Of a stretch of 32,067 nucleotides of DNA, positions 3,726-28,200 are shown in pieces (the first letter of the stretch is position 1; each line of letters starts with the position of its first letter). A program made the position numbers and the translations under genes. The notes beneath the pieces are model-generated. The model worked only from the letters and a program-made list of their open reading frames with translations. It was not told the DNA's origin and ran no database searches. The stretch is from a virus, in IMG/VR virus record IMGVR_UViG_3300023109_000076, positions 1-32,067 of that record. One strand, 5' to 3'.

Positions 3726-4298
3726 ATGTTTTCAATGTTTGCACTAGGTCTCTTTCACGGGATTATTATTTTAGTTACTATTCAACTTAGTAAGTTAGTT
3801 TTTTCTTATATCAAAGCAAATGGTATAGATGAATGGGTCGGTTTACTTGTAGTTGTTATTTTACTTACTCTCAGTACTTCCTGCACTAAAGATGAAATTA
3901 CTCAAGATTTATGCGGTGACTGCCAGGTAAGGTTTGAAATTCCTTTCGAACAAGATGCTAACGGTTATTATCATGCAAAACTTTCATTTAATTCAGCAGG
4001 TGCTGCTAGATTTAACATAGATGCTTATGCTTCAACTATTGCAGATAAGGATTTATGGGAAAATGATACTCCTAACTTCTATTCTATCTTTTCAGGTAAC
4101 ATAGAACTTACTAACGATGTAGGTGTAGTTCAGCATTCTAGATTACAGCATGATAAAAGTGGTTTTACTAGACGTACAGTTGGACCAGTTCTTACAGATC
4201 ATATAGGTGATACACTAGTAGTATCGGTAGATACTCATTGGGTTTATGCACCATTGTGGGAAAATACAAAAAATACTTTAAAAATAATTATAGAATAG
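3726..4298 (+). CDS. Putative surface lipoprotein with an extra N-terminal membrane segment
   Basis: The 190-residue protein has a first hydrophobic segment at about 5-28, then a second (38-50) ending LSTSC, where C53 is a plausible acylation site. The residues after the cysteine, TKDE, match the Lys-Asp/Glu-Asp/Glu type of lipoprotein surface-export signal described in Bacteroidetes. The mature part (about 137 residues) looks beta-rich, with two further cysteines (LCGDC, about 62-65). The -3 lipobox position is Ser rather than Leu, and a 52-residue leader with two hydrophobic segments is long; there is no alternative Met between them. A phage-encoded surface lipoprotein could act in superinfection exclusion by masking a receptor, which is inference. 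It has its own host-type promoter at 3672-3702. Confidence 0.6.
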   Translation: MFSMFALGLFHGIIILVTIQLSKLVFSYIKANGIDEWVGLLVVVILLTLSTSCTKDEITQDLCGDCQVRFEIPFEQDANGYYHAKLSFNSAGAARFNIDAYASTIADKDLWENDTPNFYSIFSGNIELTNDVGVVQHSRLQHDKSGFTRRTVGPVLTDHIGDTLVVSVDTHWVYAPLWENTKNTLKIIIE

Positions 4299-23936: not shown

Positions 23937-24860
23937 ATGGATTACACTTTTCTTTTAGGATCAATTGAAAACATATTGGGCAAAAGTCACAAGAAAGCTA
24001 GAGACAATTATGCTTTCCACTGTCCTTTTTGTAATCATCGCAAACCTAAGTTAGAAATTAATATGCATACCAACGAAGAAGGTAAGAACTTCTGGGAGTG
24101 TTGGGTATGTCAAACTAGAGGTACAACTGTTCGTTCTTTGTTATACCAACTAAAAACTCCTAAAGAATCAGCAGTTGAAATATTAAGATACTTACCAAAA
24201 GGTGGTAGTATAGAATATAAAAACCTATCTATATTAGAGATACCTGGAGAGTATCAACCGTTACATAATGCTTCAAGTAGCTCAGTTGTAGCTAATATTG
24301 TAAAAAAATACCTATATGACAGAGGACTTACCGACAATGATTTTATTAAATATAGCATTGGGTACTGCACAACTGGAGACTATGGAGGAAGAGTTATTAT
24401 CCCGAGTTATAATGGATCCAATCAACTCAACTTTTTTGTTGCACGAACTTATGACGGAAATTACTATAAGTACAAAAATCCAGAAGCTTCTAAAGACATA
24501 ATCTTTTTTGAAAACTTAATCAATTGGAATGCACCTATTATACTCTGTGAAGGAGTATTTGATGCCATTGCTATCAGAAGAAACGTTATACCTTTATTAG
24601 GTAAAAGTATTTCCACTTCACTCTACAAAAAATTAATTACATCACCATTAACCGACATATACGTAGCTCTTGACACAGATGCAAGAGACCAAGCAATTAG
24701 TATGTCAGAAAAACTATTAAACCAAGGTAAGCGGGTCTTTTTGGTGGACCTACCAGGTAAGGACCCTTCTGAAATGGGTTTTACTGCATTTACCAAATTA
24801 ATTCAACAAGCGGAGGAACTGGACCTTTCCAATTTAATGCTCCGAAAATTAGACCTATGA
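23937..24860 (+). CDS. DNA primase (DnaG/gp61-type: zinc finger plus TOPRIM)
   Basis: The 307-residue protein has an N-terminal zinc-binding finger (C29-P-F-C32 and C55-W-V-C58), an RNA-polymerase-like middle with GGRVIIPSYNG (150-160), and a TOPRIM domain: E205 in LCEGVFDAIAI, D246 and D248 in VALDTDARD, and D277 in GKDPSE. These residues bind the metal ions of primer synthesis. No helicase domain follows, so the helicase must be elsewhere. This matches the T4 gp61 type. It lays down RNA primers at the phage replication fork. The nuclease gene overlaps its end by 4 bases. Confidence 0.85.
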   Translation: MDYTFLLGSIENILGKSHKKARDNYAFHCPFCNHRKPKLEINMHTNEEGKNFWECWVCQTRGTTVRSLLYQLKTPKESAVEILRYLPKGGSIEYKNLSILEIPGEYQPLHNASSSSVVANIVKKYLYDRGLTDNDFIKYSIGYCTTGDYGGRVIIPSYNGSNQLNFFVARTYDGNYYKYKNPEASKDIIFFENLINWNAPIILCEGVFDAIAIRRNVIPLLGKSISTSLYKKLITSPLTDIYVALDTDARDQAISMSEKLLNQGKRVFLVDLPGKDPSEMGFTAFTKLIQQAEELDLSNLMLRKLDL

Positions 24861-25639
24861 TTAAACAAGGTATGAATATTCTCGAACAAAACGAGAAGAA
24901 AAGATTAGACTTTAACCCCGATTTAAAGCAAATTAATTTTTTAGACCGCAGAGTCTATAAGCGAGGCGAAGGAGTATATTACCCGTCCGTAACCACTATA
25001 CTCCAATACATGCCCAAAAATAAGTTCTTCGAGACATGGATGAAGGACGTTGGGCATAACGCCGACCTTATAATGAGGAAAGCAGGTAAAGAAGGTACTC
25101 AAGTACATGAAGCAGCAGAAGACTTAGTAGAAGGAAAAGAAGTTAGCTGGATGGATGATTACGGTAGAGCTAAATACTCTCAGCTAGTTTGGGAAATGAT
25201 ACTTAGGTTTGCTGACTTTTGGAAGACTCATAAACCTGAACTTATATCTTCAGAACAATTCGTATGGTCCGACGAACATAAGTTTGCAGGTACAGCTGAT
25301 ATAGTATGTAAGATGAACGGAGAAGTGTGGCTAATAGATATTAAAACGTCTAACAGTATACATAAATCATATGACCTACAATTAGCTTCATATGCAAAAG
25401 GACTTGAAGAGAGTAGAGGTATAAAGATTGACAGAACTGCTATACTTTGGTTGAAAGCTCAATCAAGGGGACCGTCTAAACAAAAGAAAGTTATCCAAGG
25501 TAAAGGTTGGAAGCTATTGCAGATAGATGAAATCGATAAGAACTTTGAGTTGTTTAAACTCATTTACAAACTTTACGAATTGGAGAACCCTAATACTGAA
25601 CCTATTTATAATAGTTACCCAACAACGGTGAAAGTATGA
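24857..25639 (+). CDS. PD-(D/E)XK nuclease, RecB/Cas4-like exonuclease fold
   Basis: The 260-residue product shows the core residues of the PD-(D/E)XK fold: H84 in GTQVHEAAE, E133 in the strand before AGTAD, D148 in GTADIV, D161-x-K163 in WLIDIKTS, and the helix residue Q175 in LQLASYA. Such proteins cleave DNA, usually as exonucleases acting in recombination or in clearing host DNA. There is no Cys cluster, so it is unlikely to be an iron-sulphur Cas4. It lies right after the primase and overlaps it by 4 bases, consistent with a replication/recombination role. Confidence 0.75.
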   Translation: MIKQGMNILEQNEKKRLDFNPDLKQINFLDRRVYKRGEGVYYPSVTTILQYMPKNKFFETWMKDVGHNADLIMRKAGKEGTQVHEAAEDLVEGKEVSWMDDYGRAKYSQLVWEMILRFADFWKTHKPELISSEQFVWSDEHKFAGTADIVCKMNGEVWLIDIKTSNSIHKSYDLQLASYAKGLEESRGIKIDRTAILWLKAQSRGPSKQKKVIQGKGWKLLQIDEIDKNFELFKLIYKLYELENPNTEPIYNSYPTTVKV

Positions 25640-26295
25640 AAAAAAGTTTGATATATGCATTTATTTTACTATCTTTATATGGATGCGGGTCTTACACCCT
25701 CACTAACAATAAAGGTTATGAAATTAAAAGCATTCTTACTATTACCGAAGTTGGAGATACGATCGCTGTACCCTACAGACAGTTTGTCAAGTATAGAGAC
25801 ACTGAATTTGTTAGGTACAGATACAATAATAACTGGTACTGGAACAACTGGAGATACAACGATCCTTACTTCTGGTATCAATACAATAGCTGGAACGTAT
25901 ATGGACAATGGAATTACAATTACTACCGCAATAATTTTATTTATCAGCCTCGTAGTATCCCTAGTGTTAGACCGAAAGTTAAACCAAGACCTAGACCAAG
26001 ACCTAGACCAAACGTCCCAAGAGAACCAAGAGAACCAAGAGAACCAAGACCATTAAATAATGAAAATATCAGACTTAATCCTAGAGAAACGCAACAGACC
26101 CAAACTCGTAGTAATGGCGGGGGGAGCAGGTACAGGCAAGTCGTACCTTCTCAATCAACTAGATCTAGGATCACTCCACCAAGTCAACCCAGACAAATAC
26201 GTGGAGGATCCAGACAGTCCGGCATACAACAAACTAACTCCAGGGGTAGCTCTAGCCAACAAGGAGGCAGAAGCTCTGGCAGACGTCAAAACTAG
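25636..26295 (+). CDS. Periplasmic lipoprotein with Arg/Pro-rich and Arg/Ser/Gly-rich tail
   Basis: The 219-residue protein has a classical lipobox LYGC with C17 after a hydrophobic leader. Mature residues are beta-like to about 60, then very Tyr/Trp/Asn-rich (about 60-105), then two tandem-repeat segments (PRPRPRPRP and PREPREPREPR, 116-139) and a Ser/Gln/Arg/Gly-rich tail. The mature start (GSYTLT) lacks the Lys-Asp/Glu surface signal, so it likely stays in the periplasm. Its last 236 bases overlap the next gene in another frame. This tail type (SSGRRQN ending) resembles real flavobacterial secreted proteins, so I think the overlap is genuine. Alternatively the protein ends near 26060. Confidence 0.55.
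   Translation: MKKSLIYAFILLSLYGCGSYTLTNNKGYEIKSILTITEVGDTIAVPYRQFVKYRDTEFVRYRYNNNWYWNNWRYNDPYFWYQYNSWNVYGQWNYNYYRNNFIYQPRSIPSVRPKVKPRPRPRPRPNVPREPREPREPRPLNNENIRLNPRETQQTQTRSNGGGSRYRQVVPSQSTRSRITPPSQPRQIRGGSRQSGIQQTNSRGSSSQQGGRSSGRRQN
25984..26007 (+). repeat. Two 12-bp tandem repeats (CCAAGACCTAGA)
   Basis: Two perfect copies of CCAAGACCTAGA are followed by CCA. They encode part of the PRPRPRP segment of the lipoprotein and are prone to replication slippage. Confidence 0.8.
26017..26043 (+). repeat. Three 9-bp tandem repeats (CCAAGAGAA)
   Basis: Three perfect copies of CCAAGAGAA, followed by CCAAGACC, encode PREPREPRE. The unit is a multiple of three, so copy changes would not shift the frame. 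Confidence 0.8.
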
Positions 26296-26986
26296 CTTTG
26301 TTTGGGACACTACTGCATCTAATCCTGATAAGATAAAACTATTCTTAAACAAAGGGTATGATGTGTATATGGTTATGGTTTATACTCATCCAATGATAGC
26401 ATACATATCTAACTTTTCAAGAAATCGAAACGTTCCTAGATCAGCAGTATTTTCAACTTGGAGAAATGTTTACGACCTAATTGACAACTACAACAAAATG
26501 TTAAAAGGTAATTTGTCAATTTTTGTAAACACTAGAGAAGGAAAATTTGATAAAGAAATAGAAGCATTTAATGCGGCAGCTAAAAACGGTGCAGCAGGAA
26601 TATCTGACTATATCGAAAGATACAATAAAGCTAACGATACAGGTAAATCATCTTTTAGACAAGAATATGAAATGTCTGATCAAGAAAAACAAGAGTTCTA
26701 TAATGCAGTCAAAAATGTAGACTACGATACAGATGACTATAGTGAAGATAGAGCACTTAAAAAATACTTCACAGATTGGTATAGAAAGAACGGCGTAGGG
26801 CCAGGTGATGATAAGATGGATAAAAAAGTACAGTCTCATAGAAGAGCGGCTGATAATGCATCTAAAAAACAAAAAAAGGTATTAGATGATATTGCTGATA
26901 CTTTATATGATCCTATATTTCAGGAAAAACTTAAACACTCTACTCCTGCGGAGATTGACAGTAGAGTGCAAAACTTTTTAGCATAA
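26060..26986 (+). CDS. P-loop kinase (zeta-toxin/AAA-like nucleoside-type kinase)
   Basis: The 308-residue product has a clear Walker A motif GGAGTGKS (21-28) after a hydrophobic strand (KLVVMA), a NPDKY segment (43-47) and VWDTTASNPD (81-90) where D83 probably follows the strand that positions the substrate. This plan resembles the zeta-toxin and related small-molecule or nucleic-acid kinases. The C-terminal half is helical and charged. Its first 236 bases overlap the lipoprotein gene in another frame. It precedes a nucleotidyltransferase and a HAD phosphatase, suggesting a joint nucleotide or NAD-related pathway, which is inference. Substrate unknown. Confidence 0.7.
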   Translation: MKISDLILEKRNRPKLVVMAGGAGTGKSYLLNQLDLGSLHQVNPDKYVEDPDSPAYNKLTPGVALANKEAEALADVKTSFVWDTTASNPDKIKLFLNKGYDVYMVMVYTHPMIAYISNFSRNRNVPRSAVFSTWRNVYDLIDNYNKMLKGNLSIFVNTREGKFDKEIEAFNAAAKNGAAGISDYIERYNKANDTGKSSFRQEYEMSDQEKQEFYNAVKNVDYDTDDYSEDRALKKYFTDWYRKNGVGPGDDKMDKKVQSHRRAADNASKKQKKVLDDIADTLYDPIFQEKLKHSTPAEIDSRVQNFLA

Positions 26987-28200
26987 TGGCAATAGCACTT
27001 TACCCAGGAGGATTTAAACCACCCCATAGAGGTCATTTTGAAGTAGTAAAAAAACTACTCAATAATACACACGGTGGTAAAATATATGATAAAGAATCTG
27101 CTCAAGATGCAGCATCAAAAGCATTATCTGGAGAAAGTGATAAAGTAGAACCTATTAATAAGGTTGTAATATTTGTTGGAGAAAAAGATCGTAATGGTAT
27201 ATCAAAAGAGATAGCTATTAAGATATGGAATATTTATAAGAAATATTTAGGTAACGTAGAAGTTTATTCTGAAGTACCTAATCCTATGGCAAATGCTTCT
27301 GCTTATGCAAAGAAAAGACCAGAAGAAAAGTTTTATGCTGTAACAGGTATAAGAGGAGAAGACGATATGGTGGACCTTAGACGGATAACATCGTTTAAGA
27401 ATAGAGAAAATGTACAAGGATTGGTATTTCCAGCACCAGGAGGAACAAGAGCTACTGATTTGAGAAACGCAGTTTTATCAGGTAGTTTAGATAGAGTGAG
27501 AGACTTCTTTCCTAAAGAGTTATCTAGAGAAGAACTTAATAAAATAATCAGTATGTTAAAACAAAGTATCATATCTGAAATAATGACTAATAAAGTAGAT
27601 GAATTTTTTGATGAATGGTTTACAGAAACACAACCAGTTAACGAATTTTATTCTACTCCTGCTACTAGAACTAAAGCAACAATACCATCAGCTGATAGAG
27701 CTAAATTGGTAACTCTTTACAATAGAATAAGGAGTCAAATTGAAACAGATGGTGTAACTGTATCATTCAAAGATGATCATATCACTGTTACATTAGATGA
27801 CAGTGAGTCAACAGGGTTTGACTACAAACCTTACTTAGCTTCTCTATTAGAGTATATGATTGAAGAAGGTATGAAGATCACTCCTTTACCAGAAATAAAA
27901 ACAGTGAAAGATATATCTGAATCGTCAAACTTTTTTGGAAGAACTGCTTACTACGACCCCAATGTAAATGAAATAGTTCTTTACACAGAAGGTAGACATC
28001 CAAAAGATGTAGTTAGGTCTTTTGCACATGAAATGGTACACCACATGCAAAACCTAGAAGGTAGATTAGGTAAAATAGAAACTTCTAACACAAACGAATC
28101 AGAATACCTACTTAAATTAGAGCAAGAAGCTTACCTTACAGGTAATATTACTTTTAGAAATTGGGAAGATAAAATAAAAAACGGTTATGAAAAATCTTAA
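26986..28200 (+). CDS. Nucleotidyltransferase fused to a zincin-like metallopeptidase domain
   Basis: Residues 1-170 form a HxGH nucleotidyltransferase domain: YPGGFKPPHRGHFE (6-19, HRGH at 14-17) and GTRATDLR (153-160), where the ISTxxR-like segment belongs. Residues about 315-404 contain FAHEMVHHMQN with H348-E349-x-x-H352 and a downstream E in EQEAYLTGN (about 380), the three-ligand pattern of small zincins. The middle 180-310 is a helical linker. The first domain resembles NMN/phosphopantetheine-type adenylyltransferases; substrate unknown. The second would be a protease or a degenerate structural module. Its end overlaps the HAD gene by 14 bases. Confidence 0.65.
   Translation: MAIALYPGGFKPPHRGHFEVVKKLLNNTHGGKIYDKESAQDAASKALSGESDKVEPINKVVIFVGEKDRNGISKEIAIKIWNIYKKYLGNVEVYSEVPNPMANASAYAKKRPEEKFYAVTGIRGEDDMVDLRRITSFKNRENVQGLVFPAPGGTRATDLRNAVLSGSLDRVRDFFPKELSREELNKIISMLKQSIISEIMTNKVDEFFDEWFTETQPVNEFYSTPATRTKATIPSADRAKLVTLYNRIRSQIETDGVTVSFKDDHITVTLDDSESTGFDYKPYLASLLEYMIEEGMKITPLPEIKTVKDISESSNFFGRTAYYDPNVNEIVLYTEGRHPKDVVRSFAHEMVHHMQNLEGRLGKIETSNTNESEYLLKLEQEAYLTGNITFRNWEDKIKNGYEKS

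Follow-up and report, generated by a model that had tools for sequence, protein, structure and literature searches.

A phage lipoprotein gene whose 3' end overlaps a P-loop kinase gene in another frame: evidence for dual coding by overprinting

The window, that is, the whole stretch of 32,067 nucleotides analyzed here, is a 32-kb contig of a tailed phage (IMG/VR record IMGVR_UViG_3300023109_000076). The exonuclease, lipoprotein, kinase and cytidylyltransferase-like genes described below are located on the plus strand. According to family matches, a primase gene and a gene for a PD-(D/E)XK exonuclease (24857–25639; phrog_298, E 1.8e-44) lie 5' of the gene pair under study, and a cytidylyltransferase-like gene (26986–28200; phrog_395, E 1.7e-4) and a deoxyribonucleotidase gene lie 3' of it. 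A 61-aa ORF in another frame is nested within the primase gene (24316–24501). The gene at 26986–28200 combines a cytidylyltransferase-like N-terminus with a C-terminus bearing a HEMVHH metallopeptidase-like motif; the version of its product in Flavobacterium phage immuto has 907 aa.

The first gene of the pair is a lipoprotein ORF of 219 aa (25636–26295), the ATG of which overlaps the exonuclease stop codon as ATGA. Its assignment rests on the sequence and on homologous ORFs with a recognisable lipobox in 95 loci that have the overlap. The signal peptide II and the lipid-attachment residue Cys17 (...LLSLYGC) are encoded at 25636–25686. They are followed by the head of the lipoprotein (25687–26059), in which an alignment of homologues revealed a conserved GDTI.VPY segment and then Y/N/W-rich and K/R/P-rich stretches. 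The second gene encodes a P-loop kinase of 308 aa similar to zeta toxins and polynucleotide kinases (PNK) (26060–26986; Pfam, PHROGs and Foldseek matches). At positions 26060–26295 both genes are intact, and the same nucleotides belong to two ORFs in different frames, as in the overprinted gene pairs of viruses. This 236-nt overlap contains the Walker A motif of the kinase (GGAGTGKS, 26120–26143), as the initial annotation had stated, and in the +2 frame of the kinase it encodes the C-terminal ~77 residues of the lipoprotein, a basic, R/S/Q/G/P-rich tail that is predicted to be disordered. Each lipoprotein codon consists of the third base of one kinase codon and the first two bases of the next one, so that the kinase third base supplies the first base of the lipoprotein codon.

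The G+C content of the overlap is 48.3%, compared with 32.7% in the rest of the kinase gene and 33.6% in the window, and only 0.14% of the 236-nt stretches of the window have a G+C content as high. The raised G+C content that had been noted earlier was thus confirmed, although the figure of 50–53% given for it was slightly generous (51.7, 46.7 and 53.3% in the three full lines of sequence). The kinase's own frame also remains open for 133 codons further upstream, through the lipoprotein head (25655–26056), and in the relatives the median length of this upstream opening is 81 codons versus 20 in the third frame. This is probably a by-product of the N/Y/W-rich head, although no selection test was made.

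The kinase matched the Pfam family Zeta_toxin (PF06414; E 9.8e-10, 38.6 bits with a cut-off of 22.3) and phrog_2071 (E 2.1e-9), which identifies a Walker A kinase core. The structure model of the kinase had a mean pLDDT of 82, and a Foldseek search with this predicted structure pointed to PSTK, zeta toxins and PNK, at only ~9–17% identity to the solved structures. An epsilon-like antitoxin partner was not recognised, and a zeta-toxin function is not claimed for the protein. No relatives of the kinase were found in bacterial genomes. Among isolated phages, they were found only in Pelagibacter phage HTVC008M and Methylophilales phage Melnitz, the kinases of which have 11 and 6 stops, respectively, in the frame corresponding to the tail; in HTVC008M, the kinase-like gene is likewise followed by a cytidyltransferase gene. 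The closest isolate to the contig is Flavobacterium phage immuto (72% identity for the exonuclease and 56% for a baseplate protein), which has neither the lipoprotein nor the kinase at the corresponding place. The resemblance of the tail to flavobacterial secreted proteins that had been suggested from the sequence alone fits this relationship.

The lipoprotein has the features of a bacterial-type lipoprotein, namely an N-terminal signal, a lipobox (LYGC) and a cysteine (Cys17) that is invariant in 33 aligned homologues. Searches in Pfam, NCBIfam and PHROGs, a tblastn search in INPHARED and a scan of bacterial genomes gave nothing significant for this protein family. Matches of the lipoprotein of locus L005 to the superinfection-exclusion protein Cor (E 0.12) and matches to TonB (E 0.05–0.27) were treated as noise from signal peptides and low complexity, and a match of the repetitive tail of locus L133 to an adenovirus minor capsid protein (E 5e-4, under the family cut-off) was also treated as noise. 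The model of the lipoprotein (mean pLDDT 49) was too poor for a fold search, and the tail is predicted to lack structure (pLDDT ~38–46). In loci L133, L134 and L136–L138, the lipoprotein head has an N-terminal extension ahead of the signal segment, and the tails contain tandem SRPSNNY repeats.

To evaluate the conservation of the overlap, IMG/VR was scanned with the kinase, which gave 14 loci, then 80 and then more distant ones; after the removal of duplicates, 124 distinct loci remained. An overlap of at least 150 nt in the same frame was found in 102 of the 124 loci, with a length of 203–239 nt in nearly all of them, and was absent from the other 22. It was retained down to ~50% identity of the kinases, and the stop codon of the tail frame fell in the same region in ~100 relatives. 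The overlap is thus shared by many marine phages with kinship to Flavobacterium phages. Two criteria of overprinting were met: both frames are conserved as proteins across the relatives, according to the kinase alignment and the analyses of the tail frame, and the lipoprotein frame is phylogenetically narrower than the kinase, since HTVC008M, Melnitz and several clades have no overlap. Dual coding by overprinting, as proposed in the initial annotation, is therefore supported by ~100 relatives and by the negative controls described below, as far as can be judged from sequences; the translation of both products is inferred. The alternative of a gene fusion was not supported, as the kinase ORF is intact and separate and it is the head upstream of it that looks exchanged.

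It could be assumed that the tail frame is open by chance or because of the local base composition, with selection acting on the kinase alone. When the synonymous codons of the kinase were redrawn with the codon usage of its downstream part, the observed openness was reached in none of 128,000 redraws (64 sequences), and the median open run was 4 codons, compared with the observed 51–78. Reshuffling the codons of the window's own overlap within that region left the frame open in 4.5% of draws, so that the avoidance of stops in a single sequence is by itself weak evidence, and this assumption is also favored by a synonymous rate that is not strongly reduced. It is contradicted, in addition to the redraws, by the shared region of the stop codon in the relatives and by the base choice and the normal codon usage of kinases without the overlap described below, and we consider it already refuted.

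The residues expected in the tail, given the kinase residue and the codon that follows it, were calculated for 101 overlaps, with 21 kinases without the overlap as a control. Stops and cysteine were never used in the tail frame (0 observed versus 933 and 287 expected, respectively), and His (1 versus 30), Phe (21 versus 137), Tyr (52 versus 241), Trp (68 versus 237) and Lys (68 versus 186) were depleted, while Gln (836 versus 103), Gly (457 versus 100), Pro (685 versus 310) and Asn (440 versus 226) were enriched. At the same codons of the 21 control kinases, the usage was normal, with ratios of observed to expected mostly near 1 (154 versus 155 for stops). The same was true for the control region 3' of the lipoprotein stop (ratios 0.84–1.03). 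The frequency of T at the kinase third position was 0.13 in codons 3–74 and 0.57 downstream in the 101 overlap loci. At fourfold sites, C was used in 400 of 529 cases where Gln results and in 1 of 339 where His would result. The pattern goes beyond an avoidance of T or of stops, and neither a composition bias nor an RNA element would have a reason to separate Gln from His. In addition, kinase leucine was encoded as CTN in 848 of 1031 cases in the overlap and in 545 of 1321 downstream, which keeps the second base of the lipoprotein codon from being T.

These results also bear on a nucleic-acid element at the start of the kinase gene, such as an RNA structure, a translation-initiation ramp or a packaging or regulatory site, which could constrain the third bases. 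The biased codons do begin at the kinase start codon, which would agree with such an element, and a conserved structure was not searched for in detail. However, the base choice follows the resulting lipoprotein residue (C for Gln and not for His, no Cys, no stops), and the bias is absent 3' of the lipoprotein stop and from the kinases without the overlap, which makes this explanation extremely improbable.

To allow for the kinship of the loci, 45 path-disjoint pairs were taken from a tree built with the non-overlapping part of the kinase. In these pairs, 1 of 403 third-base changes inside the overlap touched a stop or Cys, compared with 530 of 1736 outside it (p 1e-54). The check for reduced synonymous change recommended by the initial annotation was met only in part: kinase third bases changed modestly less inside the overlap than outside it in independent pairs (0.179 versus 0.234), but the rates were equal at large distance, and the signal consists in which base is allowed. 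The tail, as judged by this codon choice, drifts in sequence but not in character; what selection preserves in it is a basic, disordered and Cys-free make-up and not an exact sequence. For this reason, a plain test for reduced synonymous change would understate the dual coding, and in a classical synonymous-constraint scan this overlap might go unnoticed or look weaker than it is.

Another possibility is that translation of the tail frame yields a small protein of its own, or depends on frameshifting, and does not form the end of the lipoprotein. In locus L003, the head is parted from an otherwise intact tail frame by a 1-nt indel, located in an A-rich stretch just upstream of position 4001, which would agree with this possibility; the indel may be an assembly error, a recent mutation or a slippage site. 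In contrast, the lipoprotein heads with a recognisable lipobox have 51 different lengths and every one of them is in frame with the tail. Moreover, there are lineages without the overlap that encode the whole lipoprotein, including a tail, in one ORF ahead of the kinase. A separate product or frameshifting is thus very unlikely, and the tail is read here as the end of the lipoprotein.

The existence of relatives with stops in the tail frame had been named at the outset as a result that would refute the dual coding. Such relatives do exist, but only where no lipoprotein reads into the kinase, so that they act as controls. In L005, a lipoprotein of the other head type has an S/N/R-rich tail of its own that stops where the kinase begins, and the vacated frame already has 5 stops and 2 Cys codons. 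S/N/R-rich basic tails are also encoded ahead of the kinase in L133–146 and L100–103, while L075 and L121–132 have no lipoprotein before the kinase and L012–14/L099 have a short one; in all these lineages except L005, the vacated frame has 9–15 stops. The non-overlap lineages other than L005 show an ordinary third-base usage in the kinase (T 0.48–0.54). The independent tails resemble the overprinted ones, with a net charge of +7 to +13 compared with a mean of +12, and without Cys or His.

The root of the kinase tree was not inferred, and the ancestral state at its base is uncertain. L005, L075 and the L133/L136–146 group are nested inside clades with the overlap, and the overlap was therefore probably lost in these lineages. 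The fewest changes by which the gains and losses of the overlap can be explained number 6, and the starred branches of the tree force 4; with only ~4–6 independent gains or losses, a tree-based sign test cannot reach significance. For the overlap, a single origin at the base of the sampled clade and two separate origins both remain possible. The stops in the distant kinases of HTVC008M and Melnitz indicate that the kinase frame is the older of the two.

Two types of heads were distinguished, a short one with the GDT[ILV]xVP motif in 47 of 54 cases and a long one with this motif in 2 of 35, and they alternate 19 times on the kinase tree. The loci L108 and L109 share 94% identity in the kinase, 74% in the tail and 48% in the head. 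In 4 of the 5 pairs examined, DNA similarity ended near the end of the exonuclease gene, where the head cassette that is exchanged has its left limit, and returned ~7–13 nt before the kinase start. It seems that lipoprotein heads have been exchanged while the tail remained with the kinase; the exchange by recombination is inferred, no formal recombination test was made, and the two types could partly result from fast divergence instead.

Taken together, these data suggest that two proteins are made from one message across the same 236 nt, with a lipoprotein tail overprinted on an older kinase frame, selected for its bulk properties and joined to heads that are exchangeable upstream; we put the probability of this reading as a whole at about 0.93. 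The overlap and its conservation, dual coding in which both frames are selected at the protein level, the lineages that lack the overlap and the alternation of head types are demonstrated by sequence comparison, while actual translation, export, the direction of gain at the deepest node and exchange by recombination are inferred. Ribosomes starting at 25636, where initiation may be coupled to termination of the exonuclease (ATGA), would produce an exported lipoprotein that takes its last ~77 residues from the +2 frame of the kinase, and ribosomes starting inside the lipoprotein gene at 26060 would produce the kinase from its own start on the same message. The lipoprotein probably gained its tail by reading into the older kinase frame. 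Selection on the tail favors an arginine-rich, Gln/Ser/Gly/Pro-rich, disordered tail with no Cys, almost no His and few bulky hydrophobic residues, acting almost wholly via the synonymous third bases of the kinase and partly via the first base of its Leu codons. As the tail is fixed inside the kinase, exchange of heads can take place in front of the kinase ATG, and a head that arrives in frame gains the tail. A further and tentative proposal, to which we give somewhat less than even odds, is that the kinase 5' end serves as a fixed in-frame socket, that is, an overprinted tail selected for composition, onto which different heads are repeatedly recombined and which can give way to a physically similar tail that is encoded separately. 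The overlap would then persist by easing head exchange and not by saving space.

The absence of cysteine fits an exported protein in an oxidising location. In flavobacterial lipoproteins, an acidic run at the mature N-terminus has been described as a surface-export signal; since the mature lipoprotein considered here has no such run, a periplasm-facing outer-membrane protein is a reasonable guess, with lipidation and location being inferred. It could be speculated that it is an envelope protein made during infection for superinfection exclusion or envelope modification, with the basic tail binding acidic envelope polymers. Such a role is preferred over lysis because the lipoprotein gene sits among replication genes, with a confidence of no more than one in three.

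A description of this lipoprotein/kinase overlap was not found in our literature searches. Overprinting itself is known; what is new, as far as these searches show, is how large and widespread the family is in tailed phages, that selection for composition can be followed base by base, that heads are apparently exchanged onto an overprinted tail that stays fixed, and that several lineages lack the overlap. Visible base by base, the selection on bulk composition in two frames is unusually clear in these tailed phages, and the case illustrates that genuine dual coding can be underestimated when only the synonymous rate is tested. Section 13 of a recent review (PMC8227390) raises the question whether genes overlap because of their composition bias or acquire this bias by selection after the birth of the overlap, and calls for homologous regions without overlap. 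The present gene family provides ~100 overlaps and several lineages without the overlap, which cover a graded range of divergence. In this family, the bias is absent where the overlap is absent, so that it looks like a result of the overlap and not like its cause.

A comparison with known systems indicated several similarities and differences. The zeta toxin/PNK-like P-loop kinases (PF06414, phrog_2071) have the same Walker A core, and the present kinase differs from them in its low identity to solved structures and in the absence of a visible antitoxin. In the Rz/Rz1 spanins of phage lambda, Rz1 is a short lipoprotein nested in the gene of its functional partner, the inner-membrane i-spanin. 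The present pair is similar in that a phage lipoprotein is encoded in an alternative frame of a neighboring gene; however, only the lipoprotein tail overlaps, and the partner gene encodes a P-loop kinase, so that the o-spanin (Rz1-like) criterion of an overlap with an i-spanin partner is not met. In arrangement, the pair is like overprinted terminal overlaps of viral genes, e.g., phiX174 genes A and K (reviewed in PMC8227390). In these, the 3' end of one gene also lies over the beginning of the following gene in a different frame, and one of the frames has a restricted phylogenetic range and many disorder-promoting residues. High disorder in young +2 frames has already been reported (Willis and Masel 2018, as quoted in this review). 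Unlike these overlaps, the present pair is found in large tailed phages and not in a small genome, its young frame is selected for composition, the head of the young protein appears to be exchanged, and a tail is encoded separately in lineages that do not have the overlap.
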